20,673 bases of DNA, taken from positions 1-20,673 of the IMG/VR virus record IMGVR_UViG_3300048068_000144; one strand, given 5' to 3'. This document shows, in pieces, positions 2,011 to 20,673 of the stretch. Position numbers and translations under genes: made by a program. The DNA comes from a virus. Under the pieces are notes generated by a model. It saw only the letters and a list, made by a program, of their open reading frames with translations. It did not search any database and had not been told where the DNA came from. How positions within the stretch are numbered: the first letter of the stretch is position 1; each line of letters begins with the position of its first letter.

Positions 2011-2025
2011 ATCTTAAAAATGTAT

Positions 2026-2062: not shown

Positions 2063-2111
2063 GATCCTATATAAGATTCATGTGAGGTTTGGTTATCCTT
2101 GCTAGTTGGTT

Positions 2112-2148
2112 GAAGCCCTCTGTTAGCAATAGCAGGGGGCTTCTTTTT
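2112..2148 (+). terminator. Rho-independent terminator for nrdJ transcript
   Basis: GAAGCCCTCTG (2112-2122) pairs with CAGGGGGCTTC (2133-2143), with one G-U pair. The stem can extend inward by three more pairs to close a GCAA tetraloop (2126-2129), and TTTTT follows at 2144-2148. It lies about 100 bases past the nrdJ stop and only seven bases short of the stop of the opposing gene at 2155. It lacks a T-run in the minus direction, so it acts on the rightward transcript only. Confidence 0.9.
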
Positions 2149-2154
2149 ATCATA

Positions 2155-5100
2155 CTAGAACGCTTTCTGTAGTTTTAGTACTCCATTAATCATTGTGGAT
2201 AATGCCCCCGCTGTAGAAGAGACAGCACTACCGAAAGCTCCAGACGTTTGCTCGTCTTCGTCCTGTACCCTGACATCATACTTAGCTGCATATGCAGAAG
2301 CCGATACTAGGTTTTTAATAGCCCGTTCAATCTCACCAGCGGGTCTACGTAAAGCAACCATCTCAGCGACTTTAGCAAACTCTCTAGGATTAGATATAAT
2401 AAGACCTAGTGTATCCTGACCTACATTTTTAGCAGCATTCTCCATTTCAGATACTAGATTGGCTGACCCACGGCGCATTGCTGCGGATGTCGGGTTCATA
2501 TAGCCACCTGTAATCAGGATAGCACCCTGCACAGCATCACGTATACCTAAATTTGGAACAGTGTCTGATCCGGGTGCTGCCGGAGTAGCCTTAACTCTAC
2601 CTGCTATGTTTGTATCACCAAGACCCCTAAGTGCAGCTTCCAAGCCTTCTACAATAAAAGGTTCGTCTTGGAATAAAATACGTAAACCAGATAACGTACC
2701 ATCCAATTCTTCATTAGAAATCTTAGATAGCTTGGCTAATTTAGTATTGTATGCAGCCCTGTCAGGGGCAACCAGACCAATAGGAGTATCACCAAAGACC
2801 CGTGCAGTAACTTGCTTGATTGCAGAAGATTTAACAGACTGTAATACAAGGTCACGTTGTGGACCTACAGGCATTCGATCTATCTCTGCAAGCAATGCTT
2901 CCATAGCTCCACCAGAGTTTTTACCCGTAACTAATTCACCAATAGTGATATCAGGACGATCCACAGTTTTGTTTTTGTTATAGGTATCCACGAACTTATC
3001 TAGAATACTAGTTTCTAAAGCGTCCTGTTGCCTCTTTGCCTGTTCTAGTAGCTTATCCGCAGCCAATGTCTTAGAGCCAAGCTCTACTTGAACAGCGTCT
3101 ATATCGTTTATTGCCCGTTGAAGATCGCCGTAGAGTGGTGAGTTATTGTTCTTAAGTTGTTGAGCTATAGTATTGAATGAATCCTGTGCAGCTACGTACC
3201 CTACTCTATCATTATCTCGCAATGCCTTTGCCATTTTAAGCGTTGCCTGAGATATATAATAATCCATGATAGGCTTAGAAACGTCTGCGCCCATAGCAAG
3301 CTCTAGCTGTTTAAACAGGTCGCCTGTTTTATTTGCCATAACTGTATCGGCTAAATTAGGAGCCTCTGCGTTTAGGTTCCGCTGCCCTACAGGAAGTTGC
3401 TTGGCCTGAACAACAGGTATGTTGTCGCCTCTACTAACACGCTCCCTAAGAAATGAAGAGTATTTTTCCATAAAGGGTGTTTCAAACCACCTACCCATAG
3501 CCGCGTTAAATGTATTATCTGCCGCAATAGCTGCATCTGCTACAGAGCTATCAGATACGTCTTTCATGTAACCAAGCTGACCATTATCTGAAGTAATGTG
3601 CTTCTTCAGTTCAATAAGCTTAGTGGCTATGCCAGACCCTTGAGGCTCTGCTTGGATCATTTGCTCAAGCTTCTGTTTAAGCTTGTACAGGTCTTGGAAG
3701 CCAATTGTGCCTTCAAGGTCTGCAAGAACCTCATCCGCAGTCTGTAGCCTCGTTGTACCGCCCTCTGGAGGCATTGTATCAGAGAAGTATCTTTCCGCTG
3801 CCTCTGGGCTATCAAACTGTGAAGTATTAGGTGCTGATACGTCAATCTCTCTTGGTTTAAATACAGCACGAATTTCAGACAGTAGGCTAGATACTTTGGC
3901 ATTATCCTTGCCTTCAGTCCTAAGCGGATCAATCTCTGTAATTACTTTGTTAATTTCCTCACGCAGCATTTTTAACTGCGTTTTATCTAGCGGAGTGTTA
4001 GGTATCGCAGCGTAGGCAGCTTCAACTTCTTTCCAAGTCTGTCGATATGCCTCAACGCCATCCTCACCAAACACTTTTTGAATAACTGCTAAGTCTGTCG
4101 TTTCGTCTAGCAACTCTTTAGGATCAACACCATCCAGCATCTGTTTAATTACAGGATTTTCTGCAAACACTGCGTCTGTCTGCGCTGCTAGAGTATCAAC
4201 TTCACCCGCTAAAGTCTGAGTGTTGAAATCAGCGGTTTCAACATCTGATCGGCGTAAGTCCACCAATTCCTGACCAGCATCTTTAGTAGTAAATCCTTCC
4301 GGTGCAAGATCATCTCCGGCGTCTTTTAGCACCTGTTGAGTGCTATCAATCATATTAGACTGTGCCATTCTTGATTGTACATTCTCAGGAACGGACCGTT
4401 GAATATCAATCATGCGCTGCACTAGTGCGGTAGCTTCTTCATTAACAAAATCATCAAACTTATCACCCATTTGGTTCTTAAGCTTTTGATTAGTGACTGT
4501 GACGTATGCTTTTGCGCCCTTCATTAGTGCATTAACAGTGTCTACTGGAACAGCGCCTTCTACATCACCTATCTTAAGATGTATTTCTGCATTGTTGTTC
4601 AGTACTTTGGCTAATTGACGTACATTTTGTAAGAAGTCTTTAGCACCAAGGTCTTTTAGCTTGGGGTCTAGGTAGGTTAGAGTATTTAGAATAGTGCCTT
4701 CTTTAATGGTTCTAGTTAAATACTCTTTATCAAGTGCAGATCGTAGCCCCTGACCTCTTCGGCCCAGAAACCCTGCACCCTTCATGAGACCTGCTAGAGC
4801 AACATCAAATACACCATCAACTACAAGACTATCAACCACCATAGCTACATCATTAGCGGTTTCTTCTTTAATGTTAGGCAATACAGATTTGATATTATCG
4901 CCAGTAACTAAGAGGCTACTATCACCATCAGTTGTAACCACAGCCTGTGCAAAAGCAGCCCCTAAAGAGCCGCCTAAGTAAGCCCTAGCCGCAGGTTTTA
5001 GCTTAGACCCTGCCCCAGCAACCGTCTTAAATGTCTTGTATCCTTTAGCCGCTGGAATACCAAACGCAATCATGTCAGTCAGGAAGCCTTCAAAGCCCCC

Positions 5101-5826
5101 GGACTCTAATTCTGGTATACGTTTCTCTAAATCGCTTTCTTCAGTTATATTTACTTCTAAACTACCATCATCATCACGTTCTACTAAGCCACCAATAGAA
5201 GTAACAATACGTCTAGTACCACTGTCGATAGCTCTACTAATCATATTACTATCAACCGTAGGAATACGGGTCATTTTTACTTCGTTATTATCGTCTACTT
5301 CATAGTAAACGGAGATAGGCTCTCCCATAGCATCTACTTCAGACGCAGCCCACCAAGGGACTTCTGTAGTGGGATACTTAGCTTTCTCAGCTTCAGCCGC
5401 TGCTTCAAACTCAGCCTGTTGATCCTGTATTTCCTGACGCTCTACTTGGGCAGTATTGGGATCATCAGATATCCCCACAAACTGCATAGCATCACCAAAC
5501 CCAGCCTGAATTTTACCAAAAAGTCCTTGACCTTCAGGCTGTACTATAGGCTCCCCAGATTCATTTTTAAGATCACCGTAGAAGTAATCATAGTCTTTTA
5601 CTGGGTTAGACTGCTTCTGCTTAAGCTTATCAGTAGCACCAGCATTTAATACTTCTATCTGTTGCTGTTTCTGTGCAGATGTTAAGCTTTCGTCATTCTG
5701 AATACGACTTAAAGTTGCCTGATAAGCTTCATCACTTTCAAGAAGCCTTTGGGTTCTTAGTAACTCTGCTTCTCTATCAGCCGCAAGTTCTAGCTCAAGT
5801 ATTTCTTCTTGGGATAGTTCTTCCAT
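2155..5826 (-). CDS. Very large internal virion (DNA-ejection) protein candidate, 1223 aa
   Basis: I do not recognise a named domain. The protein opens with a Glu-rich helical stretch (residues 1-75). Apolar, small-residue stretches follow near 247-266 (containing DMIAFGIPAAKGYK), 281-299 and 329-352, which could contact or cross a membrane. A long, mostly helical, Asp/Glu/Gln/Lys-rich body leads to another apolar Gly/Ala stretch near 1100 and a C-terminus ending in VLKLQKAF. It is the last gene of the leftward block and starts two bases after the stop of the 1021-residue gene, with GAGG upstream. Size and final position resemble T7 gp16 (1318 residues), which is ejected into the host ahead of the DNA, so an ejection-channel role is inferred by position. 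I see no lysozyme or transglycosylase catalytic motif, unlike T7 gp16, and the similarity could be positional only. Confidence 0.6.
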   Translation of the reverse strand: MEELSQEEILELELAADREAELLRTQRLLESDEAYQATLSRIQNDESLTSAQKQQQIEVLNAGATDKLKQKQSNPVKDYDYFYGDLKNESGEPIVQPEGQGLFGKIQAGFGDAMQFVGISDDPNTAQVERQEIQDQQAEFEAAAEAEKAKYPTTEVPWWAASEVDAMGEPISVYYEVDDNNEVKMTRIPTVDSNMISRAIDSGTRRIVTSIGGLVERDDDGSLEVNITEESDLEKRIPELESGGFEGFLTDMIAFGIPAAKGYKTFKTVAGAGSKLKPAARAYLGGSLGAAFAQAVVTTDGDSSLLVTGDNIKSVLPNIKEETANDVAMVVDSLVVDGVFDVALAGLMKGAGFLGRRGQGLRSALDKEYLTRTIKEGTILNTLTYLDPKLKDLGAKDFLQNVRQLAKVLNNNAEIHLKIGDVEGAVPVDTVNALMKGAKAYVTVTNQKLKNQMGDKFDDFVNEEATALVQRMIDIQRSVPENVQSRMAQSNMIDSTQQVLKDAGDDLAPEGFTTKDAGQELVDLRRSDVETADFNTQTLAGEVDTLAAQTDAVFAENPVIKQMLDGVDPKELLDETTDLAVIQKVFGEDGVEAYRQTWKEVEAAYAAIPNTPLDKTQLKMLREEINKVITEIDPLRTEGKDNAKVSSLLSEIRAVFKPREIDVSAPNTSQFDSPEAAERYFSDTMPPEGGTTRLQTADEVLADLEGTIGFQDLYKLKQKLEQMIQAEPQGSGIATKLIELKKHITSDNGQLGYMKDVSDSSVADAAIAADNTFNAAMGRWFETPFMEKYSSFLRERVSRGDNIPVVQAKQLPVGQRNLNAEAPNLADTVMANKTGDLFKQLELAMGADVSKPIMDYYISQATLKMAKALRDNDRVGYVAAQDSFNTIAQQLKNNNSPLYGDLQRAINDIDAVQVELGSKTLAADKLLEQAKRQQDALETSILDKFVDTYNKNKTVDRPDITIGELVTGKNSGGAMEALLAEIDRMPVGPQRDLVLQSVKSSAIKQVTARVFGDTPIGLVAPDRAAYNTKLAKLSKISNEELDGTLSGLRILFQDEPFIVEGLEAALRGLGDTNIAGRVKATPAAPGSDTVPNLGIRDAVQGAILITGGYMNPTSAAMRRGSANLVSEMENAAKNVGQDTLGLIISNPREFAKVAEMVALRRPAGEIERAIKNLVSASAYAAKYDVRVQDEDEQTSGAFGSAVSSTAGALSTMINGVLKLQKAF

Positions 5827-5828
5827 AC

Positions 5829-8800
5829 TTACTGTCCTCGCGCTTCATTTAAAATTAGTGTGGCTTGCGCTCTGCTAAGTTTAGGGTCTTGCTTCATCAA
5901 AGTGTTTATGAGTATAATGTCTTCGTAATCAGTTCGCTCTATTAAAGTCTTAGCAGACTGAGAAGATTTAATCTTAGCATTTTCAGGTATACCTTCTAAG
6001 GTTGCACCATCCCCGTAGAAATCATTCTGGCCTTCGTTATTGTTGCCACTACCATTGCCACCTTGCTCTACAATAGGTCCAGTAGAAGGACTGCCGTTTA
6101 GCCAAGCCATCTCAGCATCTAGTCTGTTGAACCTAATAAACTCATCCATATTTCGTGGATAGTTACCGATAGGCTGTCCTGATGTACGCTCAAGTGAAGC
6201 TACTTCAGCATTCATACCTTTTCCGGTTTCTTCAGAGCCGAAGATATTTTCGATACTGCCGCGAACTTTTCCAATAGTTTCATTAGTAAGCTGTCTCAAG
6301 AGACCTTCAAAGGTTTCTAGCTTACCATCACTGGCTTTTACCTGTCTTAGAGCCTGTTTAAAGTCAGTGTCTGACAGACCTCTGCCTGATTGCTCTAGGT
6401 TCACAGAAGCATACAAGTAAGCGTACTTAAGTATTTCGGCATCAAATAGTGCTTGTGCGGATGCCGTACCCTGAAGCTGTTCATTCATTACCCGATCAAC
6501 AACTTGTTCTGGCGATAGCCCTTGGTTAGCGTAATTAGTTAAAGTATCTAAGTTAATAGACAGACGCCCAAGGAATGAAGCCGCAGTACCTACCGTAGTA
6601 AGCACCTCTGGGTTTTTAGTAGCTATCTCAGATAGTCGTTTAGCCGATCTAATAGTACCCAGAGATTTAGACTGTACCGCAGACATTGGCGTTAATAGAT
6701 CATCCCTGATCCTAGTATAGTCTTTACTTATTTCTCTACGAATACTTTCTGGAATTGGTTTTGCTTCGGAAGTAGGCTCAACTACCTCATTTGTGTAGAT
6801 GTCTCTGAGTTTACCATCAGTGTCACGCTTGACGTAGCTGTCGCCTACCCTGAACATTTCACTATTGGTGATTATCTCAGCATCATCGGCGGGGCTAATC
6901 AACTCAGATACAGCTTTCTCCATAGCACCGATCTGTTCAAACGTCATTGCCGAAGGATTTTCGATTTGATTATCTTCCATCCACTTACGCCGTGCGCGTT
7001 CTTTAGGGTCTATAGTTTTACCTTCGTTAGCAGCCGCCTCTTGTTTTTGAAGCTCTACATGCATTTTTGTATATGCAGCTTTAAGAGCGTCATTACCTTC
7101 AAACTTAGCTTCGTTAGCAATCAGGTATCTGTTCAACTCATCTAAAGTCTCAATACCTGCCAATTCGCTGGAGCCACTTTCTGTTGCTTGAGCTTCTAAT
7201 GTAGGCTTCAAGCGTAGTAGTGCAGCGTATGCTTCTTTGTTATTTTCCTCTGTAATCGTACCGGAGTCGAGTAAAAGGTCTACTTCAGTAAGTGACATTT
7301 TAGAAAGGTTCTTGGCGTCTTGCCACCACTCTACAGAATTTTTAGCAATACTTGTTCTACCGGACCATAATTTCTCCCACGCAGCCAAATCTTTCTCTGC
7401 CTCTTTACGTACAGCTTCGTCTGTAGAGGCCAAGCTTTCTGCAAGACCTGTTCTAGCTGCCCAGCTTGTGAAGGCTAAATCTTTAGGCTTACGATCCTTA
7501 CTGTCTTTTTCTTTAGCAAGAGATATAAGCTTTTCTATTGTTACCATTTGTTCAGGTTTGGCTCTATCACCATATACTGCCTTAAGACCCTCTATAACAC
7601 CCACATCTGCGCCAACCATTTTCTCTAGGATTGCATCATCCAATGGCCTGTTGTTTTGAACCGCATCAAATATAGTAATAGCGTTTTCAATATTCTTAAC
7701 AGCCTCTGGCTTGTCGCTTGTAAGCTTCCAAAGTTCAAGTCGAGCTACTAGTACCTGTCTTTCGTCTTCTGACGCTAGCTTAGTAAATATCTCTTCAGGC
7801 TTATTCCAGAATGCACCTTCTTGCTCTATGGCTTGTTTGGCAACTACAAACTCCTTCAGTTTTGTTATGTCTTCGTCAGAGACATTCTGCCCACCGATAC
7901 CTGCTTCCATCTGATTAATTTCAGCCTGAAGCTCTGCGGATGTCTTACTACGGATATCCGCTGTACTTAAGCCGCCGAAAGTCACCCAGCCTTTAGAAGA
8001 TGCTACATCACGTATCTGTTGTGCAGTTTCTTCTGCATTAGGATACTTATTAGGGAAGTCTCTTCCTTGCTTTAGAACCCTGTCAATCTCAGCTTCCCAT
8101 GTACCTGCCTCAAGAGTACTCATGTCGAACTCTGTGCTTGTGCCAAACAGATTATCAGTCTGCGTATTTAAACTATTAGCAGCCGTTTCTAGATTTGTAC
8201 TAACAGATGTTTCAGTCTGATTTTCTGGGGCTGATAAACCACCGTCTGGGTTTCTAGATAGAACATCTTTTAGGCTGTCTATAGTAAAAGATTCCTTAGC
8301 AAGTACACCTGCATACTCCCCCCCATCTACTACAAATCTTCCATTAGCTTTTGGAGTTATCTTGTAGCCATTATGATAAATTGGAACTGTATTAGAAGAA
8401 GTGTCTACTTCAGGGACATCTACTACAGGTACATCAGTACTTGCGGTATTCGTCTGTACAGGTGCATAAAACCCATCAACAGTCTTTCTAAAATTAGGGC
8501 TAGCAAGTAAATCTTGTACGCCCTTGTAAGTGGTGATGCCCATATCCTGAACGGCGGTAAATATCTGGTCATTCATGCCAGCAAGACCTGCCGGATTACT
8601 GGGTGCATTTGAATATCCTGATGTTACATCAGCCATCGCACGGGTAATATACCCTTTAATCTTCTTATCAGCCGCTTCTTTAGCAGCCTGTTTAGCTGCC
8701 AATGCTTTTCGTTCAGCCGCTTTCTGTTGTTTTTCTATAAGGTCTTCCTTACGGCGCTGTTCTGCTTCAGCCCGAATACCAAAAGTAACCTGTTCAGCAA

Positions 8801-9647: not shown

Positions 9648-12107
9648 TTAACCGCCCAACCACCAAGGTTTAGAACCTGCGCCTAGTACTGCCCCGCCAA
9701 TGGAGAGAACAGACTTCCAGAAGCTACTACTGCTACTGCCGCCTTGCTGACCAGCTTGTGCCTGAAGCTGCGCTGTTAGTAATAGTAACTCGCGCTGTTG
9801 ATCATTGTCGGCTGATTTCCAAATGTAGTCTAACAGACTATCTGCATCATCCCATAAAGCATTCTGGGCTTCTTGTGTGATATCTAGTGCATTTTTAATA
9901 TCAGTGCTAGCAGCGTCAAACTTATTTTGATTGTTTGTTGTGGCTACGTCCTGACGCCAAGTAGCGTTCATCTTATCAATATTATACTGCATGTTAGCAA
10001 CGTACTGTTGCCTAGAGTTTCTTAAGTCTGCTAAAAACTCAGAGTTGTCGTTGATTTCACCAGCATTGAACTTCTTAAGCGCATTGATTTCTGTAGCGTT
10101 ATGACGTTGTATTGAAGCATTTAACTCATCGTAGAACTTAGCCATGTCATTCCGGCCCTCTGCCGTGAACAAGGCTTGTGCGTTAATTGCCTCAGTATTC
10201 TTAAACAGAGCGTCTACCATAGCCTGTTTATTGATGACCATAGCTTGCTGTTCGTTTGTTAAATTTTGTAAATCCATCTCTAAGAAGGCTTTGGCATTCT
10301 GAACAGCGGCTGTCTCACGGGCGTCTAAGTTACCCATTTCAAACTGAGCTAATATCTTAGCTTTATTAATAATCGACTCTTGGCGATTGTCTAGGTTCTT
10401 AACTGTGAGTGTTTGGAAGAATGCCGCTTCTTTGTCTGCTACACCAATAGTAGCTTCCATAATAGCATTGGCATATGCTTCTGTAGCCGCAGTCCCTGTC
10501 ATGCCGCCAAATGCAATGGTCTGTTGTATCCCTCTTAAATCAGCTTGCGCCCAAGTAGGTATTCGTGCATTACCATTGCTGTCTTTAAACTCCGCAGATA
10601 TTAACTTTATCTGACCCATCAAGGTTGCTTTATGGTCAGTATAATTACCCTCGCCTAATGCTTGGGCCAACATCTTACCTTCGGCTGTAGAAGTATTAAT
10701 AACTGTAGAGATATTCTGGGAAGCAAAGTTATCTAGGCTATCGCCCATAACCCCTTCACCCTTAGCCTCTGCCTCTACATCAATCTGTATGTTGTCAGCG
10801 TCTACAAGATTGTCACTGTCTATTTCACCAGTAACCCCTGTCGCTAGCATGTCATCTGTTATAACATTTTCTGTAACATCATATGTAGCAGCTTCTGCAT
10901 TGGCTATGCTATCTACCTGAACACCATCTGTCACAGTATTAACATCAGGCATGTTGATATCATCAAGACCCTCAAAGTCTCCCATGACTGTGCCTTCAGC
11001 GTCTGCATCAAGTTCTGGTACATTGTCGGATACGTTAAGGCCACGATCTTTTAGGTACTTCATCGCGTTAGCAATGATTTCTTCCTGAGTACCTTTGATG
11101 TCAGTAAAACCAGCGGCTTTAGCCATCTCCAGTACTTTGTCGTAGTCACTCTGACCAGTACCTGTACCATCACCAGTTTCAGGCTCACCTATACCTGCGT
11201 TGGCATCAGCGTACTGTTGAATTTCATTATTATCGTCATCGCCACCAGTGTTCTGGCTAGCTGTGTACTGATATGCGGTTTGGTCAGATAAGTTATCAGG
11301 ATCGTAGTTAGGATCACTATACTTATTCCCGTTCTTATCTACGGGTAAAGACAGGGTATCCACCATTTTACCATCAACAATACTAACCTCATACGGCAAG
11401 TTTAGAAAGTTATATGAATACAGCATACCATCGCCGTTATCATATACCTGATTATCTTTTCCGTTCTTATCTTTATATGTACCAGACGCTTGGTTCTCTG
11501 GATCAAGGCCGTTTGCCCAGCCCGTGAGTGCGCCCAAGGCTTTAGGTATTAAACTTAGACCGCCAGTGAGACCAGCGCTAACAGCCGTGCCTACAGTGCT
11601 ACTACTCTTGTATGTTCCTTTTAAAGTGTCTTCTTGTTTGTTGTTAAAACCAAAGTTAAATCCACCAAAGGGAATAGTCAGGTTTTGGTTAACCGTTATA
11701 ACATTACCGTTGTCCTGTGCTAACTCTGGGTTAGCGTCTATTAATGCCTGAACAGTAGTATTGTTTTTCTGTGCGATTTCAGAAAGGGTGTCGCCCTTAG
11801 CCACGGTATGTGTCTTGCCAAAGATAGAACTACCCAAGCCACCTGTAACGTCACTAACTGTGTTGCTTACTATTTGTCCAACACTGTTACTACTACCGTG
11901 TCCCGAAGACGTAGAACCTACTTGTGCGTTGTTATTATTTTGACCAGTACTACTACTGTCCATAATACCGCCGCCAATAACTTTGTTGGTATTTGTATCA
12001 ACAAGTGTACCGCCTTGGTATTCTTTACCATCGCCAGCGGTAAATGCGTTTGCAACACTTTCTCCAAAGCTATTGCCGCCACCAATATTTTCAGACCACC
12101 AACCCAT
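9648..12107 (-). CDS. LysM-domain virion protein, 819 aa
   Basis: Residues about 99-146 form a LysM module (THTVAKGDTLSEIAQKNN, then a second helix and ITVNQNLTIP), a fold that binds peptidoglycan. The 90 residues before it are Gly/Ser/Asn-rich and disordered. After it come an apolar Gly/Ala/Leu stretch (about 170-195), a long acidic Asp/Val-rich region, and from about 560 onward a helical Gln/Asn/Ala-rich part. The protein ends in a Ser-rich linker and a Gly/Trp tail. The start at ATG 12107 shares one base with the o-spanin stop (TAATG), with AGAAGGA upstream, so translation is probably coupled to lysis genes. Peptidoglycan binding fits either a virion protein that anchors the DNA-delivery complex in the cell wall or a lysis accessory. 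The size and the following virion genes favour the first. No hydrolase domain is visible. Confidence 0.75.
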   Translation of the reverse strand: MGWWSENIGGGNSFGESVANAFTAGDGKEYQGGTLVDTNTNKVIGGGIMDSSSTGQNNNNAQVGSTSSGHGSSNSVGQIVSNTVSDVTGGLGSSIFGKTHTVAKGDTLSEIAQKNNTTVQALIDANPELAQDNGNVITVNQNLTIPFGGFNFGFNNKQEDTLKGTYKSSSTVGTAVSAGLTGGLSLIPKALGALTGWANGLDPENQASGTYKDKNGKDNQVYDNGDGMLYSYNFLNLPYEVSIVDGKMVDTLSLPVDKNGNKYSDPNYDPDNLSDQTAYQYTASQNTGGDDDNNEIQQYADANAGIGEPETGDGTGTGQSDYDKVLEMAKAAGFTDIKGTQEEIIANAMKYLKDRGLNVSDNVPELDADAEGTVMGDFEGLDDINMPDVNTVTDGVQVDSIANAEAATYDVTENVITDDMLATGVTGEIDSDNLVDADNIQIDVEAEAKGEGVMGDSLDNFASQNISTVINTSTAEGKMLAQALGEGNYTDHKATLMGQIKLISAEFKDSNGNARIPTWAQADLRGIQQTIAFGGMTGTAATEAYANAIMEATIGVADKEAAFFQTLTVKNLDNRQESIINKAKILAQFEMGNLDARETAAVQNAKAFLEMDLQNLTNEQQAMVINKQAMVDALFKNTEAINAQALFTAEGRNDMAKFYDELNASIQRHNATEINALKKFNAGEINDNSEFLADLRNSRQQYVANMQYNIDKMNATWRQDVATTNNQNKFDAASTDIKNALDITQEAQNALWDDADSLLDYIWKSADNDQQRELLLLTAQLQAQAGQQGGSSSSSFWKSVLSIGGAVLGAGSKPWWLGG

Positions 12108-12352
12108 TAGAGATTATCCTTCTTATTTTCACAGGCTCTAATACGATCCCGTAGCTGTATATAATCGGTAACGGCAGTTTCGATAGCATCACTGTCTTGC
12201 GGAAGACTTGTTAGTTCTTCTGCCAGCTTTTCGTTGTATTCTTTTGAGTAGTCTGCCATTGGGGGGCAGTAGACCTCTAGGTTGGTCCTATAGACCGTTC
12301 CCCCGCAGCCGCTCAGTAAGAGACTTACGATCAGTAATGTTGTCGTTTTCAT
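12107..12352 (-). CDS. o-spanin (Rz1-like outer-membrane lipoprotein), 81 aa
   Basis: The start is set at ATG 12352, since this places a classic lipoprotein signal at the N-terminus: a Lys, an apolar LLIVSLLL stretch, and the lipobox LSGC with Cys16. An in-frame ATG 18 codons earlier would bury the signal. The mature part (about 66 residues) would be anchored by lipid in the outer membrane and is helical, with a PQDSDAIETAVTDYIQLRD segment like those I recall in phage o-spanins. It overlaps the i-spanin gene by 65 bases in another frame, the usual Rz/Rz1 arrangement. The pair fuses inner and outer membranes in the final step of lysis. The upstream site is weak (GGCAGAG), which fits low expression or coupling. 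The stop shares a base with the LysM gene start. Confidence 0.85.
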   Translation of the reverse strand: MKTTTLLIVSLLLSGCGGTVYRTNLEVYCPPMADYSKEYNEKLAEELTSLPQDSDAIETAVTDYIQLRDRIRACENKKDNL

Positions 12353-12527
12353 GCTCTGCCATTGCCTTATAAAAGTCAGTAGTTTTTTTCTGTGCTTGTA
12401 GATCATCCTTAAGCACTTTGTTTTTTTCTTTAGACCGTCCAGTAACCTGACCCATTACGTAGATTATAGGTAAGGCTAATGCCAATGCACCTATGATATA
12501 GGTCTTTATTTTTCCAAAGACGAACAC
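12288..12527 (-). CDS. i-spanin (Rz-like inner-membrane protein), 79 aa
   Basis: It begins with GTG, not ATG, at 12527, sharing one base with the lysozyme stop (TAGTG). Residues about 10-30 form a single membrane segment (YIIGALALALPIIYVMGQVTG region). A charged periplasmic helix follows with likely coiled coil (KNKVLKDDLQAQKK). This one-pass, N-in layout with a periplasmic helix is typical of i-spanins, which bind the o-spanin across the periplasm. The neighbouring overlapping lipoprotein gene and the lysozyme upstream make the assignment strong even though the protein is shorter than lambda Rz (153 residues). GAAGG lies upstream. Confidence 0.8.
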   Translation of the reverse strand: MFVFGKIKTYIIGALALALPIIYVMGQVTGRSKEKNKVLKDDLQAQKKTTDFYKAMAEHENDNITDRKSLTERLRGNGL

Positions 12528-13258
12528 TAGTGAATGCCTTCTTTATTGTCTTTGAACCGTGCATATGCTGCCAGCGCAATGCCCCCAATAGCCAGTATTA
12601 GGAATATTGTTTTAAGCATTGGAGCATAGCTTACTAAACCCTGTATTTGACCAGATACTTCGTTTAGGGCTGTTGCTGCGCCAGCAATACCTGCACCCGC
12701 CATTGTTTTGGACTTTGCCAAAGACTTAGGTGCTTCTGCGGTAGGCTTCTGTGGCATCTCTGGCCCACCCTCATCAGAGGGTAACTGTGCATCACGGCTA
12801 AAGACAGCGGCCTCTGCCGCACGGCGTCTAGTCAATCCACGCAGGGGCTGTAACTTACCATCTACACGGGCCTTGTTCCACCGCATGATTTGCTCTGGGC
12901 AATCATCGTAATTTCCTGAGTTTAGTTTTTTCAGCAAAGTTGATGACTTAAATGCACCACCACCTAAGTTGAATACAAATGATACCAGAGCATCATACTG
13001 CCCCTGTGTCAGTGGTACATTAACTAGTCGTTTAACAATCTTACCGTGTTCGTCTAAGTCTGCTATTAGACGCTGTTCAGCTTCTTCTACTGTGCATCGC
13101 ATACCAGAGCGGATGCCTTTAGTGGCTCCGTAGCCCAGTGTCCACTTATTTGCCGGACATCTATACGAATGGACTAAACCATCATCCTTCAGTTTATGTA
13201 GACCTTCAAACTTTTTAACAAGTTCTACACAATCTGGGGATACGTTTGTTGGATGCAT
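12527..13258 (-). CDS. Endolysin: GH24 (T4/P21-type) lysozyme with C-terminal membrane segment, 243 aa
   Basis: The enzyme cuts the glycan strands of peptidoglycan at lysis. Residues 1-150 carry the GH24 fold: KKFEG with catalytic Glu18, then YRCPANKWTLGYG with Cys34 and Thr40 in the positions of Asp20 and Thr26 of T4 lysozyme, and later VSFVFNLGGGAF, MRWNKA and GLTRRRAAE. Between Glu18 and Cys34 there are 15 residues, while the usual spacing is 8. After a Pro/Ala/Lys linker (about 155-180) come a Gly/Ala-rich apolar stretch and a clear membrane segment (KTIFLILAIGGIALAAYA, about 216-233) ending in a charged tail. The start at 13258 follows GAGG at 13266-13269 and lies four bases after the previous stop; an upstream in-frame ATG at 13291 would overlap that gene without need. 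No separate holin is visible, so the C-terminal part may serve membrane targeting or a holin-like role (inference). Confidence 0.9.
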   Translation of the reverse strand: MHPTNVSPDCVELVKKFEGLHKLKDDGLVHSYRCPANKWTLGYGATKGIRSGMRCTVEEAEQRLIADLDEHGKIVKRLVNVPLTQGQYDALVSFVFNLGGGAFKSSTLLKKLNSGNYDDCPEQIMRWNKARVDGKLQPLRGLTRRRAAEAAVFSRDAQLPSDEGGPEMPQKPTAEAPKSLAKSKTMAGAGIAGAATALNEVSGQIQGLVSYAPMLKTIFLILAIGGIALAAYARFKDNKEGIH

Positions 13259-13262
13259 ATTG

Positions 13263-15017
13263 TTACCTCGTTGTTGCGTAAGGGGAAGCAAATCCAGTGC
13301 TTGGTGCTGCGTTAGACATCGCCGGACTTAAATTACCCATTGATGTATTGGCCCCTTGAATAGTACTTAGTTGCGCTAAGTTATTAAGACTTCTGTTAAT
13401 ATTCATAACCTGATCACCCATGCGATTTCCTTGGGCATCAAAAGAACGCAACATTAAATTACCGTTGTCATCAATGGCGCGGGATACCGTAGTACCATTC
13501 TCCATTACAGAATTTTGAATTAAGTTACCCTGATCATCAAATGCTTGACCAAGCTGCCTAAATTCATTTCGCATATTAGCATCAAGATTGGTCTGTTCAG
13601 CCGCTAGACCTGCTAGATCACGGGTCTGGTTATCCAGCTTCTTATCTTGCTGAGTAAATCCTCTAGCAATCGCCTGTAGTTCCGCTCCAGTACTAGCCTC
13701 TGCGGAGTCGAAGCGCCGATCAAGTTGACCCATCAATGATTGCTCATAGGCTTCCGCATTACCCAGCATAGTGTCTACGTCCATAGAGACAGCACTTAGC
13801 TCATTACCGTTGGCGTCAATCTTGCGCTCCATAATAACGCCTTGGGCGTCCATAGACCGTGTTATTGTATTGCCTTGTTCGTCTATAGAGTTTGCAATCA
13901 ATTGACCATTTTCATCAAAAGAGTTAGCAAGTTTAGTATACTGGTCTCTAGTGCTTGCCTCAAGCGTATCACTAGAAGTTTGTATCAAATCTCGAACATT
14001 ACCAAGTCTAGTTGAAAGATTTTCTGATGCTGTTTGATCTGCAAGAGAAGCGTCTGAAAAGCCTGTACCTATAGCAGCGCCCACGTTTTTAAAGCCAGCG
14101 TCAATACCTGTACCCAGAGTGCCAATAGTTTTAGCAATATCACCCTGACCTGTAGCAGTTGCCTGTGCATAATCACCAAGGTCTTCGCGTAGACGGTCAG
14201 TTTGATTTGCCTGTGCGGTGGCAAGATCAGCCCGTGCTGTTGTAGCCAATTCAGTATCTTGTCCATACCTGTCTACAAAGCTATCGAAGTTAGATGAGAA
14301 TGTATCCTGACCTGACTGTAGCGCGGCTTGATTTTCAAGCGAAGACGTAGCATAGGCGTCCTGATTACCGGACATAGTATTAACACTATCTTGCAGCGTA
14401 CCTTGATTGCCTGTGATAGTTGTTTCTGCACTATTAAGATCAGCACCAAGATTATTAAGGGACGTATTCGCGCTATCAAATCCAGCATCTACCGCAGACT
14501 GTACGCCGCCCACGTTTGTATCAAGACTGTCAAACCTACTACCAGCGTCTGCAAAGCCCTCTGTCATTTGATTGCTTGTGTCAGTAAACCCTGTGTCTAC
14601 CGCAGACTGTACCCCACCAACGCTAGTATCTAATGTATCAAATCTACCAGTAGCGTCCTGAAAACCTGTATCAAGAGAAGCTTGTGTAGCTAGGCCACCT
14701 GTATTGTTCTGTAGCGCCGTAAGCATGTCATTATAATATTTAGCTCTTCCCGTAGCAGCGTCTGTTTGACCCTGCGTAAGGGCATCACCGTAGCCTTGTA
14801 CAACACCCGTAAGATTAGTAAATCCGGTATTAGTATTAGCATTAATGCCTGTGGTAGCGCCTTCGATTTTAGTACCAAGCCCAGTGATACCTTCGCCTAC
14901 GGCTGTAAAACCTTCTTGGGCTTGCTCACCAAGACCCGTCTGATTAGTTTGAAGCTGTTCATACTGATCATCACCTAGTCCCGTGTTGGTAACCGAAGTG
15001 GTTGAATTAAAACTCAT
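13263..15017 (-). CDS. Repeat-rich, coiled-coil structural protein, 584 aa
   Basis: This is a Gly/Asn/Gln/Thr-rich protein with no Cys and no signal peptide, built from short repeats. Residues 126-161 and 162-197 are two close copies of a 36-residue unit centred on GGVQSAVD, with a decayed copy before them. Later, two copies of a segment of the type FDENGQLIANSIDEQGNT start at residues 367 and 493, separated by a helical stretch of coiled-coil character. Such sequences are typical of elongated phage structural proteins (fibre shafts, connector or tape-like parts), but I cannot name a family. ATG 15017 follows AAAGGAT and lies four bases after the acetyltransferase stop. The downstream lysozyme ribosome site is inside its last codons. 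By place it belongs to the virion module, and the repeats suggest an extended oligomeric rod. Confidence 0.7.
   Translation of the reverse strand: MSFNSTTSVTNTGLGDDQYEQLQTNQTGLGEQAQEGFTAVGEGITGLGTKIEGATTGINANTNTGFTNLTGVVQGYGDALTQGQTDAATGRAKYYNDMLTALQNNTGGLATQASLDTGFQDATGRFDTLDTSVGGVQSAVDTGFTDTSNQMTEGFADAGSRFDSLDTNVGGVQSAVDAGFDSANTSLNNLGADLNSAETTITGNQGTLQDSVNTMSGNQDAYATSSLENQAALQSGQDTFSSNFDSFVDRYGQDTELATTARADLATAQANQTDRLREDLGDYAQATATGQGDIAKTIGTLGTGIDAGFKNVGAAIGTGFSDASLADQTASENLSTRLGNVRDLIQTSSDTLEASTRDQYTKLANSFDENGQLIANSIDEQGNTITRSMDAQGVIMERKIDANGNELSAVSMDVDTMLGNAEAYEQSLMGQLDRRFDSAEASTGAELQAIARGFTQQDKKLDNQTRDLAGLAAEQTNLDANMRNEFRQLGQAFDDQGNLIQNSVMENGTTVSRAIDDNGNLMLRSFDAQGNRMGDQVMNINRSLNNLAQLSTIQGANTSMGNLSPAMSNAAPSTGFASPYATTR
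13266..13269 (-). promoter_or_regulatory. Ribosome binding site fixing the endolysin start
   Basis: GAGG on the minus strand, seven bases before ATG 13258 and overlapping the last codon of the 584-residue gene. It decides the endolysin start in favour of 13258 over 13291 and suggests translational coupling. Confidence 0.7.
14427..14642 (-). repeat. Two tandem copies of a 108-bp (36-aa) unit
   Basis: Units 14535-14642 and 14427-14534 encode residues 126-161 and 162-197 of the 584-residue protein. The best-kept core at DNA level is CTACCGCAGACTGTAC (+ strand), seen at 14597 and again at 14489, exactly 108 bp apart. This points to a tandem duplication within the gene. Confidence 0.8.
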
Positions 15018-15553: not shown

Positions 15554-15778
15554 CTAAGCAGCTTCTTCGACTGCCTCTTCTTTTTCGAGGCTAGCTGCTA
15601 GCATATTTACGAAAGCCTCACGGCCTACGTTTAGCTGATCTAGATTAAACTGTGCGTTTGCCAGTTTGCGATCTAAATCCTGTACATGGTTCAGCATTGT
15701 TACTTGCTGTTCCGTCATATCTTCAACAAGGTATTCTTTGTCGTTGACTGTGATTGGGGTCTTTTCTTTTTTAGCCAT
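15554..15778 (-). CDS. Small DUF6447-like protein, 74 aa
   Basis: The protein starts MAKKEKTPITVNDKEYLVED, a short beta-hairpin pattern (ITVNDKEY), followed by one long helix with heptad Leu spacing and an acidic Glu/Ala tail. This plan recalls DUF6447, a small family I associate with marine phages; the match is from memory and no function is known to me. AAGGA lies upstream, and a GTG at 15781 directly before the ATG could also be the start, adding one residue. It ends 64 bases before the acetyltransferase start, the largest gap in the leftward block. Confidence 0.6.
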   Translation of the reverse strand: MAKKEKTPITVNDKEYLVEDMTEQQVTMLNHVQDLDRKLANAQFNLDQLNVGREAFVNMLAASLEKEEAVEEAA

Positions 15779-15796
15779 CACGGTTTTTCCTTATGA

Positions 15797-16018
15797 TTAT
15801 GAATTAGCTGCAATAGCAGCGTTTGCGGCGGTCATGTCTTCTGTAGTCCAGAAGTCTTTTGCAACCATTAACTGTAGATGCTCTACATTGCGTGACACAG
15901 TGTCAGTCCAATCGGCGTCTTCCATGTCCTCTGGTTGCCCAGCATTTAGCAGATCAACGGAGTGACCCATTGCTGTGTAGTGCTGTGCGATTTCTTCCGC
16001 AGTTGGTGTATCAGTCAT
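15797..16018 (-). CDS. Small acidic protein, 73 aa, unknown
   Basis: No domain is recognised. The protein is Asp/Glu/Ala/Thr-rich, probably helical (TAEEIAQHYTAMGHSVDLL), with two Trp residues and an Ala-rich end. No signal or membrane segment is seen. A strong AAGGAG site stands before ATG 16018. It sits between two other small genes of similar size, each with its own good ribosome site, directly after the tail-fibre genes. Genes in that position often serve fibre assembly or attachment, which is only a guess here. Confidence 0.65.
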   Translation of the reverse strand: MTDTPTAEEIAQHYTAMGHSVDLLNAGQPEDMEDADWTDTVSRNVEHLQLMVAKDFWTTEDMTAANAAIAANS

Positions 16019-16045: not shown

Positions 16046-16312
16046 TTAAAGCTGACTTTCAAAAGATGCAAAGTCGTTTAAAACCTCTGCTTGCATTTCT
16101 GAAACCTTTGTCCAATACGCTAGTCCATCACCACTTTCAGGATCAGAACCTTCCGCAGCGATAGCTTGATCTTGCGTATAATGCTCTCGCATCTTTTCTG
16201 TTATTAACGACGATATATTCTTGCCCTGATCTTCAATTGGATATTCTGTCCACTGACCATTTAGCAAAATAGAATAAACGCCGCTTTCATTTTTAAAGTA
16301 CGTTGTTTGCAT
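16046..16312 (-). CDS. Small protein after the tail-fibre gene, 88 aa, unknown
   Basis: The N-terminal part looks like a small beta-hairpin (TTYFKNESGVYSILLNGQW), and the rest is helical and acidic with a Gly/Asp/Glu loop. No signal or membrane segment is visible. AAGGAG precedes ATG 16312, and the gene begins 11 bases after the fibre stop, so it is co-transcribed with and likely translated after the fibre. Roles such as fibre chaperone or tip accessory fit the position but are not shown by any motif I know. Confidence 0.65.
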   Translation of the reverse strand: MQTTYFKNESGVYSILLNGQWTEYPIEDQGKNISSLITEKMREHYTQDQAIAAEGSDPESGDGLAYWTKVSEMQAEVLNDFASFESQL

Positions 16313-16323
16313 TTTTGATCTCC

Positions 16324-19116
16324 TTAATAATCGCCGTTACCGCCGCCGCCAATAACAGTGATTGAAACTGTTAAGTTGCTATCTTTTGTAACAACCAAGC
16401 TGTTGCCACTGGAGGAAACGCTGAATGTAGCAACACCGGTACCTTTGAAAGCTGCAACAAGAGTTTGATGGATAACAGAGTTGCCACCTCTAGGCATGTA
16501 CCAATATATCAAACACCCACCATAACTTTGAAGATCAGTTGTTCCACCAATGGAAATGTTGATTAAACAAGTAATATTATCGCCCATACCCATGTCTGCG
16601 GCAGTAAAAGTTTCACTAGAGTTTCCAGTATTTCTATTAACAATCCTAAACAGAGAATTAGAAAGAGATGATCTAGGGCCACCCAATAATTCAAGAGCGG
16701 ATGAACCTTGCGCAACAAATCTAGGAGTACCATCCCCATCAGACAGCACGACGTTGTTGCTTGATGTGCGGATGTCTAAGCCGGCTTCGTTGCCGTTGTA
16801 TGCGCCACAGATCGTGTTTTTTGCACCTGTGGTTATAACACTCCCCGCACCCGCACCTACAGCAGTATTATTGTTTCCGCTAGTCGCTGCGGAAAGTGCT
16901 TGATGGCCCACGGCAACGTTGTTAGCACCTGTGGTCAGTGCGTCATGTGCATCACGCCCGATTGATACGTTTTGATAACCAGAAGTAATTCTGACACCAG
17001 CGTTCACGCCCAAAGCGGAGTTATAATACCCGTTTGTTACTGCGCTTAAAGAACCGCTACCCACGGCAGTATTCAATGTACCCGTTGTAACAGCGTCCAG
17101 TGCGTTACGACCAACGGCGGTGTTGTTAGTTCCTGTCGTGCCCAGATTACCAGCATGGTATCCAACGTAGGTGTTGTTAGAACCCGTGGTGTTAGCATAC
17201 CCCGCTGCACGACCAACAAAAACGTTTTGTGATCCTGTGGTGTTAGCATATCCCGCCTGATAACCAAGACCTGTTATGTTACTGGTAGTGTTGTAATAAA
17301 GAGCTTGATATCCAACAGCGGTGTTGCTGTTGTCATCATTGCTGTTTAACGCCTGATATCCAACGGCTACGTTGTTGCTGCCTGTAGTTGCTGTCCTTAA
17401 AGCGTATCCACCCAACGCCACGTTTTGTGTAGCGGTAGTAGCGGCATCCATGACGTAATAGCCACTTGCAACGTTGCTGTGGCCTGTCGTCAGTCGATTT
17501 GCGGCCTTACGTCCCGCAAGTGTGTTGCCATAACCCGATGTAAGACTTTCACCAGCGGATGAACCAACCGCTACAGTGCTGTAAGCTGTTAGTTCTCCTC
17601 CAGCAAAGTCGCCAATCAAAACATTGTAGTTATTACCTGTAAACGCACCGTTGTAACCAGCACGATAGCCAACGACTGTGTTGTGACCGCCTGTTGTTGC
17701 ATCACGGTATGCCTCGTAACCAATGGCTACGTTATTGTCTCCTGTCGTGATATTTCTACCAGTACCATACCCATACGCCGTGTTTGCTGATCCGCCGTTA
17801 CTGTCTTCAAGGGATGCGTGGCCCATAGCCGTGTTTGCTGCTCCAGTAGCTTCAGTTTTTAGCGCAAAGTACCCAATACCAATGTTATAGTTTTGGGTAG
17901 TATTAGCGTATACCGCTTGATAACCAATACCTACGTTGTATGCGCCTGTTGTGTTGTTGCGGAGAGACTCATATCCAATAGCGACGTTATAACCAGCAGT
18001 GGTGTTGGAAGCTAGTGCGCTTCTACCTATAGCCGTGTTGAAGGACCCTGTGGTGGTAGCCTCTGCTGCGGCATAACCAATCACAATATTATCCTGACCT
18101 GTAGTAGCAGTCTGTAAAGAAAAAGGACCAACAGCTACGTTTCTTACACCTGTTGTAATGTTTTGCCCTGCTCTATGCCCAATACCTGTATTGTATGCAC
18201 CTGTTGTGACATCTAACAACGCTTGGTATCCAACGGCAGTGGTCCCTGTCGCTGTGGTGTTTGCATAAGCTGCTTGATACCCAACCGCAGTGTTGTTGCT
18301 GGCGGTGGTGTTGTTATAGAGTGCCTGATGCCCTAAAGCAGCGTTGTTTGTACCCGTGGTGTTTTCACGCAGAGCCTCTGTCCCAATCGAAACATTTGAG
18401 CCTCCTGTGGTGCTGTTTACCATTGAGTAATAACCAACAGCCACGTTGCTTGTTGCTGTTTCGTTGTTAGCCAATGTACCATAGCCAACAGACGTATTGT
18501 ACGAGCCTGTCGTGTTGTCTCTAAGGGCAATATATCCAAGTGCGGTATTGTAATTACCTGTGGTGTTATATTGCATTGCATTCATGCCAAATGCGGTTAC
18601 ATGACCTGTAGTATTACTATACCCAGCCTGAAACCCAACTGCCGTGTTGTTTGATGCAGTGCTATTATTATACAAAGCAAGTGAGCCTACAGCCGTATTA
18701 GAACCACCTGTAGTATAATACATAGCAGCACGACCAACAGCCGTGTTCTCGTCAGACGTAGCATTTGTCTGTAGCGCATTGTATCCAACCGCCGTGTTGT
18801 ATCTTGCAGACGTAACAGACTGTAGAGCCTGAGTACCAATAGCAATATTTTCATTACCATTGATAATATTAGGCAAGGCATTGTTACCTATGGCTACGTT
18901 ATTTTGTCCTGAGAACGTGCCGCCTACACTGCTAGGATTAAGTGTTCCCCCACCCAGTTGTACGTTGTTTGCTCCAACAGGATAATTACCATGTAGTCGT
19001 ATACTCCCAGACGTAATGGTTAAGTTCCCATTCTGTATTTCTGAGGCCGTGATTATGCCATCTGCCAGTATGCTACCGTCCGACAGTACGTTTGCGAGTG
19101 TTCTTGCTTTCGTCAT
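16324..19116 (-). CDS. Tail-fibre or adhesin-like protein with 42 NTAVG repeats, 930 aa
   Basis: A short N-terminal segment (MTKARTLANVLSDGSILADG, to about residue 73) probably attaches to the virion. Residues 74-788 are about 42 units of 17 residues of the type TALGYIALRDNTTGSYN, with the V/A-x-G core, apolar and small residues in fixed places, and TTG turns. The last unit (GAYNGNEAGLDIRTSSNN) is longer and acts like an exit cap. The final 142 residues are beta-rich with aromatic patches (GGCLIYWYMPRGG) and end in VIGGGGNGDY. Such repeats resemble the left-handed beta-roll of trimeric adhesin heads and occur in marine phage fibres (family knowledge). Unlike the neighbouring fibre it has no S74 chaperone. 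AAGG precedes ATG 19116, which lies three bases after the upstream fibre stop. Receptor binding at the cell surface is the likely job. Confidence 0.8.
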   Translation of the reverse strand: MTKARTLANVLSDGSILADGIITASEIQNGNLTITSGSIRLHGNYPVGANNVQLGGGTLNPSSVGGTFSGQNNVAIGNNALPNIINGNENIAIGTQALQSVTSARYNTAVGYNALQTNATSDENTAVGRAAMYYTTGGSNTAVGSLALYNNSTASNNTAVGFQAGYSNTTGHVTAFGMNAMQYNTTGNYNTALGYIALRDNTTGSYNTSVGYGTLANNETATSNVAVGYYSMVNSTTGGSNVSIGTEALRENTTGTNNAALGHQALYNNTTASNNTAVGYQAAYANTTATGTTAVGYQALLDVTTGAYNTGIGHRAGQNITTGVRNVAVGPFSLQTATTGQDNIVIGYAAAEATTTGSFNTAIGRSALASNTTAGYNVAIGYESLRNNTTGAYNVGIGYQAVYANTTQNYNIGIGYFALKTEATGAANTAMGHASLEDSNGGSANTAYGYGTGRNITTGDNNVAIGYEAYRDATTGGHNTVVGYRAGYNGAFTGNNYNVLIGDFAGGELTAYSTVAVGSSAGESLTSGYGNTLAGRKAANRLTTGHSNVASGYYVMDAATTATQNVALGGYALRTATTGSNNVAVGYQALNSNDDNSNTAVGYQALYYNTTSNITGLGYQAGYANTTGSQNVFVGRAAGYANTTGSNNTYVGYHAGNLGTTGTNNTAVGRNALDAVTTGTLNTAVGSGSLSAVTNGYYNSALGVNAGVRITSGYQNVSIGRDAHDALTTGANNVAVGHQALSAATSGNNNTAVGAGAGSVITTGAKNTICGAYNGNEAGLDIRTSSNNVVLSDGDGTPRFVAQGSSALELLGGPRSSLSNSLFRIVNRNTGNSSETFTAADMGMGDNITCLINISIGGTTDLQSYGGCLIYWYMPRGGNSVIHQTLVAAFKGTGVATFSVSSSGNSLVVTKDSNLTVSITVIGGGGNGDY
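16721..16800 (-). repeat. 80-bp shared junction, copy in the second fibre
   Basis: This stretch matches 19703-19782 in the same orientation at 71 of 80 positions by hand alignment. It encodes the exit cap LDIRTSSNN plus SDGDG-x-PR, directly before the point where the two fibres become unrelated. Confidence 0.9.
16753..18897 (-). repeat. 51-bp periodic coding repeat, about 42 units
   Basis: Residues 74-788 of the 930-residue fibre repeat with a 17-residue period; most units are exactly 17 and a few 15, 16, 19 or 21 long. Units are diverged at DNA level, so this is an old, structurally maintained array, not a fresh expansion. Confidence 0.9.
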
Positions 19117-19119
19117 ATC

Positions 19120-20673
19120 TTAACCTTCCAGAGTAGCGACACGGGCTTCTAGTTGTTCAATCCGATCCATTGCTTCTTGCAATGCCTTGACTGCTTTCAT
19201 GTAGAGGATGGAGTAGTTGACCTGTTTCGTGACTGTTCCCAAATCTTCTTTGGTTTCAGGGTCAAAGTCTGGGCTTTCAAACACAAGTCCACTCATTCCA
19301 GCCGCTTCGACTTCTTGTGCAATCACGCCTAGTTTGTTTGGTGCATCAAGATTGTCAGCTTTCATGCTGTACTTACGAACAGTCAGAGCCTTGATGTCGT
19401 CCCATTGTGAGCCGCTATCCACAATGTTTTCTTTCAGCTTAACATCTGACAGTGCGCCGTAAGAGTTATTTACATTTACTACGTTACCATTTGATTTAAT
19501 AGTCAGTCGTGCAGCAGGAGTACCGTCATAACAATATAAAAATTCATTCCCATTCCCATTAGGTGCTGCGCTTGTATACTGAATTAACAGACCATAAGGA
19601 TCACTAGCGTGTGTATTTTGAGTTGCTACTGTCCATTGCGCCTTATCGTTTTCAAGACCCCAATGAGCTAGGGAAGATGGATTTTTAGTTGAATACCACC
19701 CTCTAGGATTACCATCCCCATCAGATATAACGATGTTGTTGCTTGAGGTGCGGATGTCTAGGCCGCCTTGGTTGCCGTTGTAGCGGCCTATAATGGTGTT
19801 GGATTCGCCTGTGGTCATGTCTTCGCCAGACGTGCCGCCGACAAAGGTATTCTTTATACCAGTAGTCATATTTCTACCAGCATAATAACCAATCAACGTA
19901 TTGTACGCCGTTGTTGAGCTTGTTCGGTTATGCGTATAACCCGCTTGGAAACCAACAGCTACGTTGGCGTTTGATACGGTGTTTGTGTACAAACTCTCAA
20001 AGCCAAGACCTACATTGTTCGCACCTGTAGTATTAAGGCGCATAGCCTCTTGCCCCAATGCAACGTTGTTACTCGCCGTGGTGGTGTTACGCATTGCCAA
20101 CTTACCAACAGCAGTATTCTGGCTACCTGTTGTTAGGCTCATCATACTTTCACGACCAACGGTAGTGTTACCAATACCCGTTGTAATATCCTGACCTGCA
20201 AGTGACCCTACCGCCGTATTTTCATAACCAGTTGTAACAGCTTGTAATGCTCGCTCACCAACAGCTACTAGCCCACCAGCCGTTAGGTTTCCAGATGCGG
20301 TGGTGTTGGATAATAAAGCTTTACCACCTACTGCCACGTTTTGTGTGCCAGTGCTTGTAGTTGTTAGTGTATCATAACCTATCGCTACGTTATAGCTATC
20401 TACCGCAGAAGTTGGGTTGAAGGAGTATAATGCGTGTCTACCAATAGCTATGTTTCTACTGCCTACAGTGTTTGAGTAAAGAGCCTGATAGCCAACCGAA
20501 GTGTTGCTGCTTGCGGTGGTGTTATTTATTGAAGCAGCACGACCAACGGCTGTGTTATGTTGGCCTGTTGTATTATGGTACATTGCATAAGTACCAAATG
20601 CTTGGTTTCTTGCACCTGTCGTGTTTGTGTAAAGAGCCTGATAGCCAACAGCCGTGCTTTGATCTGCGGTGGT
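19120..20673 (-). CDS. Tail fibre with NTAVG repeats and C-terminal S74 intramolecular chaperone (N-terminus outside window)
   Basis: The reading frame is open to the right edge, so at least 517 residues are seen and the start is missing. An ATG at 20583 lies in the middle of a repeat and is not a credible start. About 17 repeat units of the 17-residue NTAVG type run from the edge to 19735, ending in the same exit cap as the next gene. A receptor-facing beta-rich segment of about 95 residues follows. The last 109 residues form a Peptidase_S74 chaperone: the motif SDVKLKENI carries the Ser and, five residues on, the Lys that drive self-cleavage, then RKYSMKADN, LGVIAQEVEAAG, and a C-terminal coiled coil (MDRIEQLEARVATLEG). 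S74 domains help fibres trimerise and then cut themselves off before the Ser. It is the first gene of the visible leftward block. Confidence 0.92.
   Translation of the reverse strand, partial: TTADQSTAVGYQALYTNTTGARNQAFGTYAMYHNTTGQHNTAVGRAASINNTTASSNTSVGYQALYSNTVGSRNIAIGRHALYSFNPTSAVDSYNVAIGYDTLTTTSTGTQNVAVGGKALLSNTTASGNLTAGGLVAVGERALQAVTTGYENTAVGSLAGQDITTGIGNTTVGRESMMSLTTGSQNTAVGKLAMRNTTTASNNVALGQEAMRLNTTGANNVGLGFESLYTNTVSNANVAVGFQAGYTHNRTSSTTAYNTLIGYYAGRNMTTGIKNTFVGGTSGEDMTTGESNTIIGRYNGNQGGLDIRTSSNNIVISDGDGNPRGWYSTKNPSSLAHWGLENDKAQWTVATQNTHASDPYGLLIQYTSAAPNGNGNEFLYCYDGTPAARLTIKSNGNVVNVNNSYGALSDVKLKENIVDSGSQWDDIKALTVRKYSMKADNLDAPNKLGVIAQEVEAAGMSGLVFESPDFDPETKEDLGTVTKQVNYSILYMKAVKALQEAMDRIEQLEARVATLEG
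19123..19449 (-). other. S74 self-releasing chaperone domain, 109 aa
   Basis: The Ser codon is at 19449-19447 and the Lys codon at 19434-19432, matching the Ser/Lys dyad with five-residue offset known from phage endosialidase chaperones. Cleavage is expected just before the Ser (after ...YGAL), releasing a 109-residue piece. Confidence 0.88.
19703..19782 (-). repeat. 80-bp shared junction, copy in the first fibre
   Basis: This is the partner of 16721-16800, in direct orientation about 2.98 kb away, with nine differences in 80 positions. It marks the boundary between the repeat region and the gene-specific C-terminus. Confidence 0.9.
19735..20673 (-). repeat. 51-bp periodic coding repeat, at least 17 units, continuing past the window
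   Basis: The same 17-residue pattern as in the neighbouring gene, with a few longer units of 21-22 residues (for example the one containing SFNPTSAVDSYN). The array runs to the right edge, so its true length is unknown. Confidence 0.88.

Follow-up and report, generated by a model that had tools for sequence, protein, structure and literature searches.

Two fiber genes that stand in tandem in one viral genome can share the same repeat and the same cap and then end in different tips. How does such a pair arise, and what joins a given tip to a given anchor? We examined these questions for a 20,673-base virus record (IMG/VR record IMGVR_UViG_3300048068_000144), referred to here as the window, and for the loci compared with it, which carry L numbers. 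The phage is read as T7-like on the basis of capsid-, gp11-, and gp12-type neighbors in its relatives, and a near-identical contig (L003/L007; 99.6% over 10.7 kb) comes from the same phage. On the minus strand, the genes run in the order B, A, an 88-aa gene, a 73-aa gene, a 75-aa gene, a GNAT acetyltransferase gene, and further genes. B lies upstream of A, and 3 nt separate the B stop codon (TAA) from the A start codon (ATG).

Two fiber genes with one repeat scaffold and different ends

Gene A (16324 to 19116, minus strand) encodes a repeat fiber of 930 aa without an intramolecular chaperone, as judged by its ORF and Pfam searches. Its N-terminal anchor and entry motif (MTKARTLANVLSDG... SIRLHGNYPVGANNV; 18922 to 19116) are of the type found in the MTRARDLADSADKD group and in gp37 of Roseobacter phage CRP-1, with which the A anchor agrees at 60% over 50 aa. 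Splitting of the translation gives about 41 repeat units (16819 to 18921), most of them 17 residues long, then a cap unit, NTICGAYNGNEAGLDIRTSSNNVVLSDGDGTPR (16720 to 16818), located by unit split and cap profile, and finally an orphan tip with a short Gly-rich end (16327 to 16719), predicted to be beta-rich. Neither Pfam nor a local profile finds Peptidase_S74 at the A C terminus, the last 131 residues have no match in Pfam or in 50,697 phage records, and within the loci compared the tip matches L003/L007 alone. AlphaFold models the tip with a pLDDT below 60 in most blocks.

Gene B (19120 to 20673, minus strand) is visible for 517 aa, its 5' end lying outside the window. Sixteen units of ~17 residues can be seen (19801 to 20673), followed by the cap unit NTIIGRYNGNQGGLDIRTSSNNIVISDGDGNPR (19702 to 19800; again by unit split and cap profile), a beta-rich segment presumed to be the receptor-binding part (19450 to 19701; from a model of moderate to low confidence), and an S74 intramolecular chaperone with a C-terminal helix (19123 to 19449). 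The chaperone matches Peptidase_S74 (PF13884) with an E value of 1e-7 and 32.6 bits versus a curated cutoff of 22, and the catalytic motif SDxxxK, the S74 consensus given in the available text of PMC10769870, is present as SDVKLK. In Foldseek, the MyRF ICA, the T5 L-shaped fiber chaperone, and the endosialidase chaperone rank top for this C terminus. From these matches, the B tip is expected to be folded by its built-in chaperone, for which cleavage is predicted.

The fixed cap common to both proteins reads YNGNxxGLDIRTSSNNxVxSDGDG. A cap profile, which replaced the whole of gene B as a query for viral contigs, finds at least 579 related stretches there, so the likeness of the two caps is not due to chance; the search with the whole gene had given a single distant match. 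In bacterial and archaeal genomes, the same profile finds five weak MAG contigs. A total of 105 phage records match A, and three PHROG profiles (phrog_23837, phrog_6002, and phrog_4636) match the repeats of A (E values of 1e-97 to 1e-104) and of B (1e-44 to 1e-49). The Pfam YadA/Hep_Hag head repeat (a left-handed beta-roll) was not matched in A or B up to an E value of 0.1, and a PDB sequence search with both proteins returned nothing up to an E value of 1. Single-chain models place a 3-residue strand about every 17 residues, with low confidence (pLDDT ~55 to 84). The longest exact DNA repeat inside the fiber genes of the window is 21 nt, indicating that the repeat is shared at the protein level. 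The initial annotation of this DNA, which placed a common 17-residue repeat in two genes (~42 units in one and at least 17 in the other), with the same exit cap and ends that diverge beyond it, was borne out in all these features, coordinates included; with the cap units counted, A has ~42 units and the visible part of B has 17.

Tandem repeat-fiber genes in other phages

The B-A junction was found in the window contig and in no other contig. Tandem pairs of repeat-fiber genes, in contrast, were found in about a dozen phages besides this one (L031, L078 [= L111], L116, L067, L147, L146/L148, L159, L037, L045, L201, and L217), and L166 carries three such genes in a row (1140 to 7245), the last of them without an S74 end. 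Of the 18 cap-scan loci that contain a complete gene flanked on each side by 3 kb or more, 4 have two or more fiber genes; a scan with the entry motif gave tandem genes in 3 of 23 loci by script and in two once L204 had been rejected by eye. L204 and L233 were discarded as tandem cases because their first gene seems to fit the unit pattern by chance; L082 and L093, each apparently one gene with a broken frame, were left uncounted. Most comparable pairs have two unlike anchors.

Every tandem case is a metagenome contig, and the cultured relatives CRP-1, CRP-7, CRP-831, HTVC111P, and HTVC112P have one repeat fiber each in the regions examined. The initial annotation had held that relatives with the repeats in a single gene would speak against a two-fiber module; several cultured phages are indeed of this kind, and the pair is not refuted by them.

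Tips and anchors are re-paired by crossovers within the repeat

How do tips come to stand on different anchors? In L031, anchor N1 carries tip X and is followed by anchor N2 with tip Y, whereas in L078 N1 carries Y and is followed by N2 with X. Between these two loci, the N1 anchors are 100% and the N2 anchors 99% identical, and tips X and Y are 93% and 96% identical, respectively. The first gene of L078 is identical to the first gene of L031 as far as nt ~568; from nt ~520 onward, it matches the second gene of L031, being identical across the crossover zone and 96 to 99% identical beyond it. The overlap of the two matches consists of the codons of NNTTASNNTAVGHQAGY, the hub unit, of which 26 nt are exact in both L031 genes. 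The first gene of L078 is a recombinant of the two L031 genes, with the crossing inside the hub unit. The second gene of L078 is not the simple reciprocal product, since its inner repeats differ, and the two loci thus represent a re-pairing rather than one clean swap.

The L078 arrangement is also present in L111, a contig from another metagenome that is 99.97% identical to L078, and was found in part in two more contigs. In L116, an X-type tip stands on anchor N1, and tips have moved between anchors in L067/L147 and L146/L159 as well. Among 159 complete genes, 19 tip clusters recur, of which 17 stand on two or more anchor clusters, and each of the 18 recurring anchor clusters bears at least two tips; the sample was picked by cap, anchor, and tip searches, and these counts are not population frequencies.

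The hub unit also marks the borders of other exchanges. Gene A contains a block of 377 to 380 nt (18272 to 18651) that is 98 to 99% identical in DNA to the fiber genes of L002 and L004, with flanks at ~40 to 55% in register, and both of its borders lie in the (T)TASNNTAVG hub unit (TTASNNTAVGYQAGY). After de-duplication, high-identity blocks have 28 internal ends, of which 11 fall in the TTA-type hub unit of both genes, versus at most 3.6 expected; with the pairs that had suggested the idea left out, the count is 8 of 22 versus 3.0 expected (simulated P of ~0.004). Part of this excess may be detection bias, since the DNA of hub units is somewhat better conserved (0.62) than that of the remaining units (0.56). 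The distribution of block ends suggests that a few conserved units are preferred crossover sites. The end points of exchange lie in conserved repeated motifs, as they would in T-even-like tip exchange. The initial annotation had anticipated that scaffolds stay while tips vary, which needs some correction, the scaffolds themselves being mosaic.

Exchange is not limited to parts of fiber genes. L006 is 99.25% identical to the window over 5.9 kb and diverges past window position ~15581, where it has an unrelated fiber cassette (L006 positions 1 to 1590) with the end motif GKVATPFEHRSYGEELALCQRYFE. A relative with nearly the same backbone and an unrelated fiber indicates that the fiber cassette is also exchanged whole.

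A probable shared pool of fiber modules and the alternatives to it

We consider it probable that A and B encode trimeric receptor-binding fibers, each with an anchor of its own, assembled from a shared pool of modules and that the repeat serves as both spacer and recombination platform. Each fiber would be modular, with an N-terminal anchor, a shaft of 17-residue beta-roll units, a fixed cap, and a tip. The pair would have been drawn from a pool common to many aquatic phages and not from a recent duplication, and the repeats and cap would provide the homology through which phage recombination can fuse anchors and tips in frame in any combination, whether the exchange is between phages or between genes in tandem. 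Tip exchange would probably change which bacteria the fibers grip. A bolder proposal is that crossovers or gene conversion in hub units between the tandem genes form an intragenomic tip switch, frequent enough for host-range contingency and independent of a dedicated recombinase or reverse transcriptase; we regard this as speculative and rather unlikely. A DGR or an inversion system was also considered for the window and dropped, as reading of its listed ORFs gave no obvious reverse transcriptase or invertase.

The initial annotation derived the pair from a tandem duplication of one fiber gene, followed by replacement of one C terminus in this lineage. The common unit and cap, the adjacency of the genes, and the likeness of the two proteins over the repeats are what such an event would leave, but the DNA shared by the two genes is confined to 85 nt of the cap, at 88%, and two snippets of at most 41 nt. 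With so little shared DNA, and with a block in A that is nearly identical to fibers of other phages, a recent duplication is not supported as stated; it would also fit poorly with the different anchors of most comparable pairs. Duplication plus tip replacement appears too simple for A and B, and we judge it an unlikely origin, while a two-fiber host recognition module with replaced C termini, the other half of that proposal, is supported by the recurring pairs and their exchanged tips. About equally doubtful is a pair in which one fiber alone functions on the virion and the other, decaying or kept in reserve, serves as a source of tips. Many relatives manage with one repeat fiber and the A tip is an orphan, as this would predict; against it, the A reading frame is open over 930 codons, both the 3' part of A and the 88-aa gene are intact in L007, and further tandem pairs also have intact frames.

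It is conceivable, though on balance doubtful, that the two fibers form a branched complex in which one docks on the other instead of both being attached to the tail. Receptor-binding complexes of this type are described for Ackermannviridae (PMC11414711) and Klebsiella phages (PMC6872550) in the available portions of these papers, and the paired anchors do differ; however, no docking domain was identified in the fibers, and repeat scaffolds also sit on plain T7-type N termini (L060 and L065). The restriction of tandem cases to metagenome contigs and the presence of the B-A junction in one contig could also mean that the pairs or the tip swap are assembly chimeras across repeats. We hold this to be very improbable: in neither L031 nor L078 do the two genes share an exact repeat of more than 30 nt, additional metagenomes contain the L078 arrangement, and pairs are present in about a dozen other phages. 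Misassembly of the window itself is unlikely because its exact repeats are short, at most 21 nt in the fiber genes.

Small genes downstream of the fibers and their possible relation to chaperones

What would fold a tip that lacks a built-in chaperone? The A tip may depend on the protein of 88 aa encoded directly behind it (16046 to 16312, minus strand), an orphan with no relatives in the loci compared except in the near-identical contig. Next on the same strand are a 73-aa gene of the IAQHYTAMGHSVDLLN family (15797 to 16018), which follows many repeat-fiber genes, and a 75-aa gene of the DKEYxxxxLT family (15554 to 15781; phrog_21153), which closes the fiber cassette. In many relatives, an AMGHSVDL gene of 73 to 80 aa directly follows the repeat fiber. 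Where that gene is nearby, it comes immediately after fibers with a built-in chaperone in 40 of 41 cases, whereas in 7 of 10 cases of fibers lacking one, the window included, an additional small gene stands in between (Fisher P of 8e-6, uncorrected for relatedness). For this comparison, S74 ends were classed by a local profile, as a regular expression missed true S74 ends, and ends of the form GDDIVRSKTIAKVTST...DGSYxVPCVLMAC were counted as built-in chaperones. The latter, a recurring non-S74 end of the fibers of L079, L102, L047, L048, and L101, looks to us like another intramolecular chaperone, presumably G2-type; a Pfam scan of the L079 fiber end gave no G2-type chaperone match.

The extra small genes have no visible kinship to one another. 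A role of the 88-aa protein as a chaperone or accessory of the A tip, indicated by the position of its gene, is plausible because downstream fiber chaperones and adhesins are known (PMC7289586). Examples of a fiber with a downstream intermolecular chaperone are T4 gp37/gp38, Mu Tfa, and gp26/gp27 of Alteromonas phage V22 (PMC7289586). Gene A resembles them in having no built-in chaperone and a small gene directly after it; the 88-aa protein, however, is much smaller and has no detectable similarity. If true, the contrast between built-in chaperones and downstream genes also offers a way to find fiber assembly proteins that have no sequence relatives.

Comparison with known systems of tip exchange

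In T-even phages, conserved repeated motifs in the fiber gene provide the homology for exchange of receptor-binding tips, and the repeats described here would act in a like manner. The motif and fold are different, however: the platform here would be the whole 17-residue shaft repeat together with the cap, and re-pairing of tips is also seen between the tandem fiber genes of related phages. The closest cultured counterparts are CRP-1 gp37, CRP-7 gp48, and gp48 of Pelagibacter phage HTVC112P, which have the same unit architecture and an S74-type end. The CRP-1 and CRP-7 fibers have the cap, and the CRP-1 anchor is related to that of A, but in the regions examined each of the three genomes has one repeat-fiber gene, unlike the window.

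The Mosaic adhesive trimeric (MAT) fibers of Bdellovibrio bacteriovorus are a paralogous trimeric set with mosaic tips, some of which end in S74 (SDxxxK) and others in a non-S74 tip that replaces the chaperone, as in B and A (PMC10769870, available text). They differ in being a family of 21 in a cellular genome with another N-terminal domain, and the same available text does not mention a 17-residue unit with a cap. Variable host recognition islands and flexible modules have been described in marine and cryoconite phages (PMC3909814 and PMC7468147), in which near-identical backbones carry interchangeable receptor-binding genes, as seen here with L006. In those phages, genes or regions are replaced, whereas the anchor-tip re-pairing described here is resolved to one unit in the repeat. 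A literature search that covered few subscription papers found no description of exchange inside a 17-residue repeat between tandem fiber genes. Tip exchange is already known; what appears to be new is the repeat-borne exchange between tandem fibers.

These results outline how abundant aquatic phages could renew host recognition by a concrete route at the level of sequence: the shaft repeat would double as a recombination platform, and two differing anchors would give each tip a second place. If so, tip-anchor pairs could be read from metagenomes, and the evolution of host range could be traced as the re-pairing of a finite set of tips.

Several other features of the window were seen in the course of this work. 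A gene at 13263 to 15017 encodes a 584-aa protein with degenerate repeats of the GF.D....GG.QSAVD type, and DNA matches to several relatives end or thin out inside it. Judged by eye, two small overlapping genes at 12107 to 12527, one of which has a lipoprotein-like start, resemble an Rz/Rz1 spanin pair and adjoin a lysozyme-like gene (12527 to 13291). The gene at 9648 to 12107 encodes an 819-aa virion-type protein with a LysM domain (PF01476). In CRP-7 (L016, 7860 to 10478), the annotation of ribonucleotide reductase is split in two around a small gene, which may reflect an intron or intein, and the ribonucleotide reductase gene of the window (61 to 2010) is, by eye, one frame.
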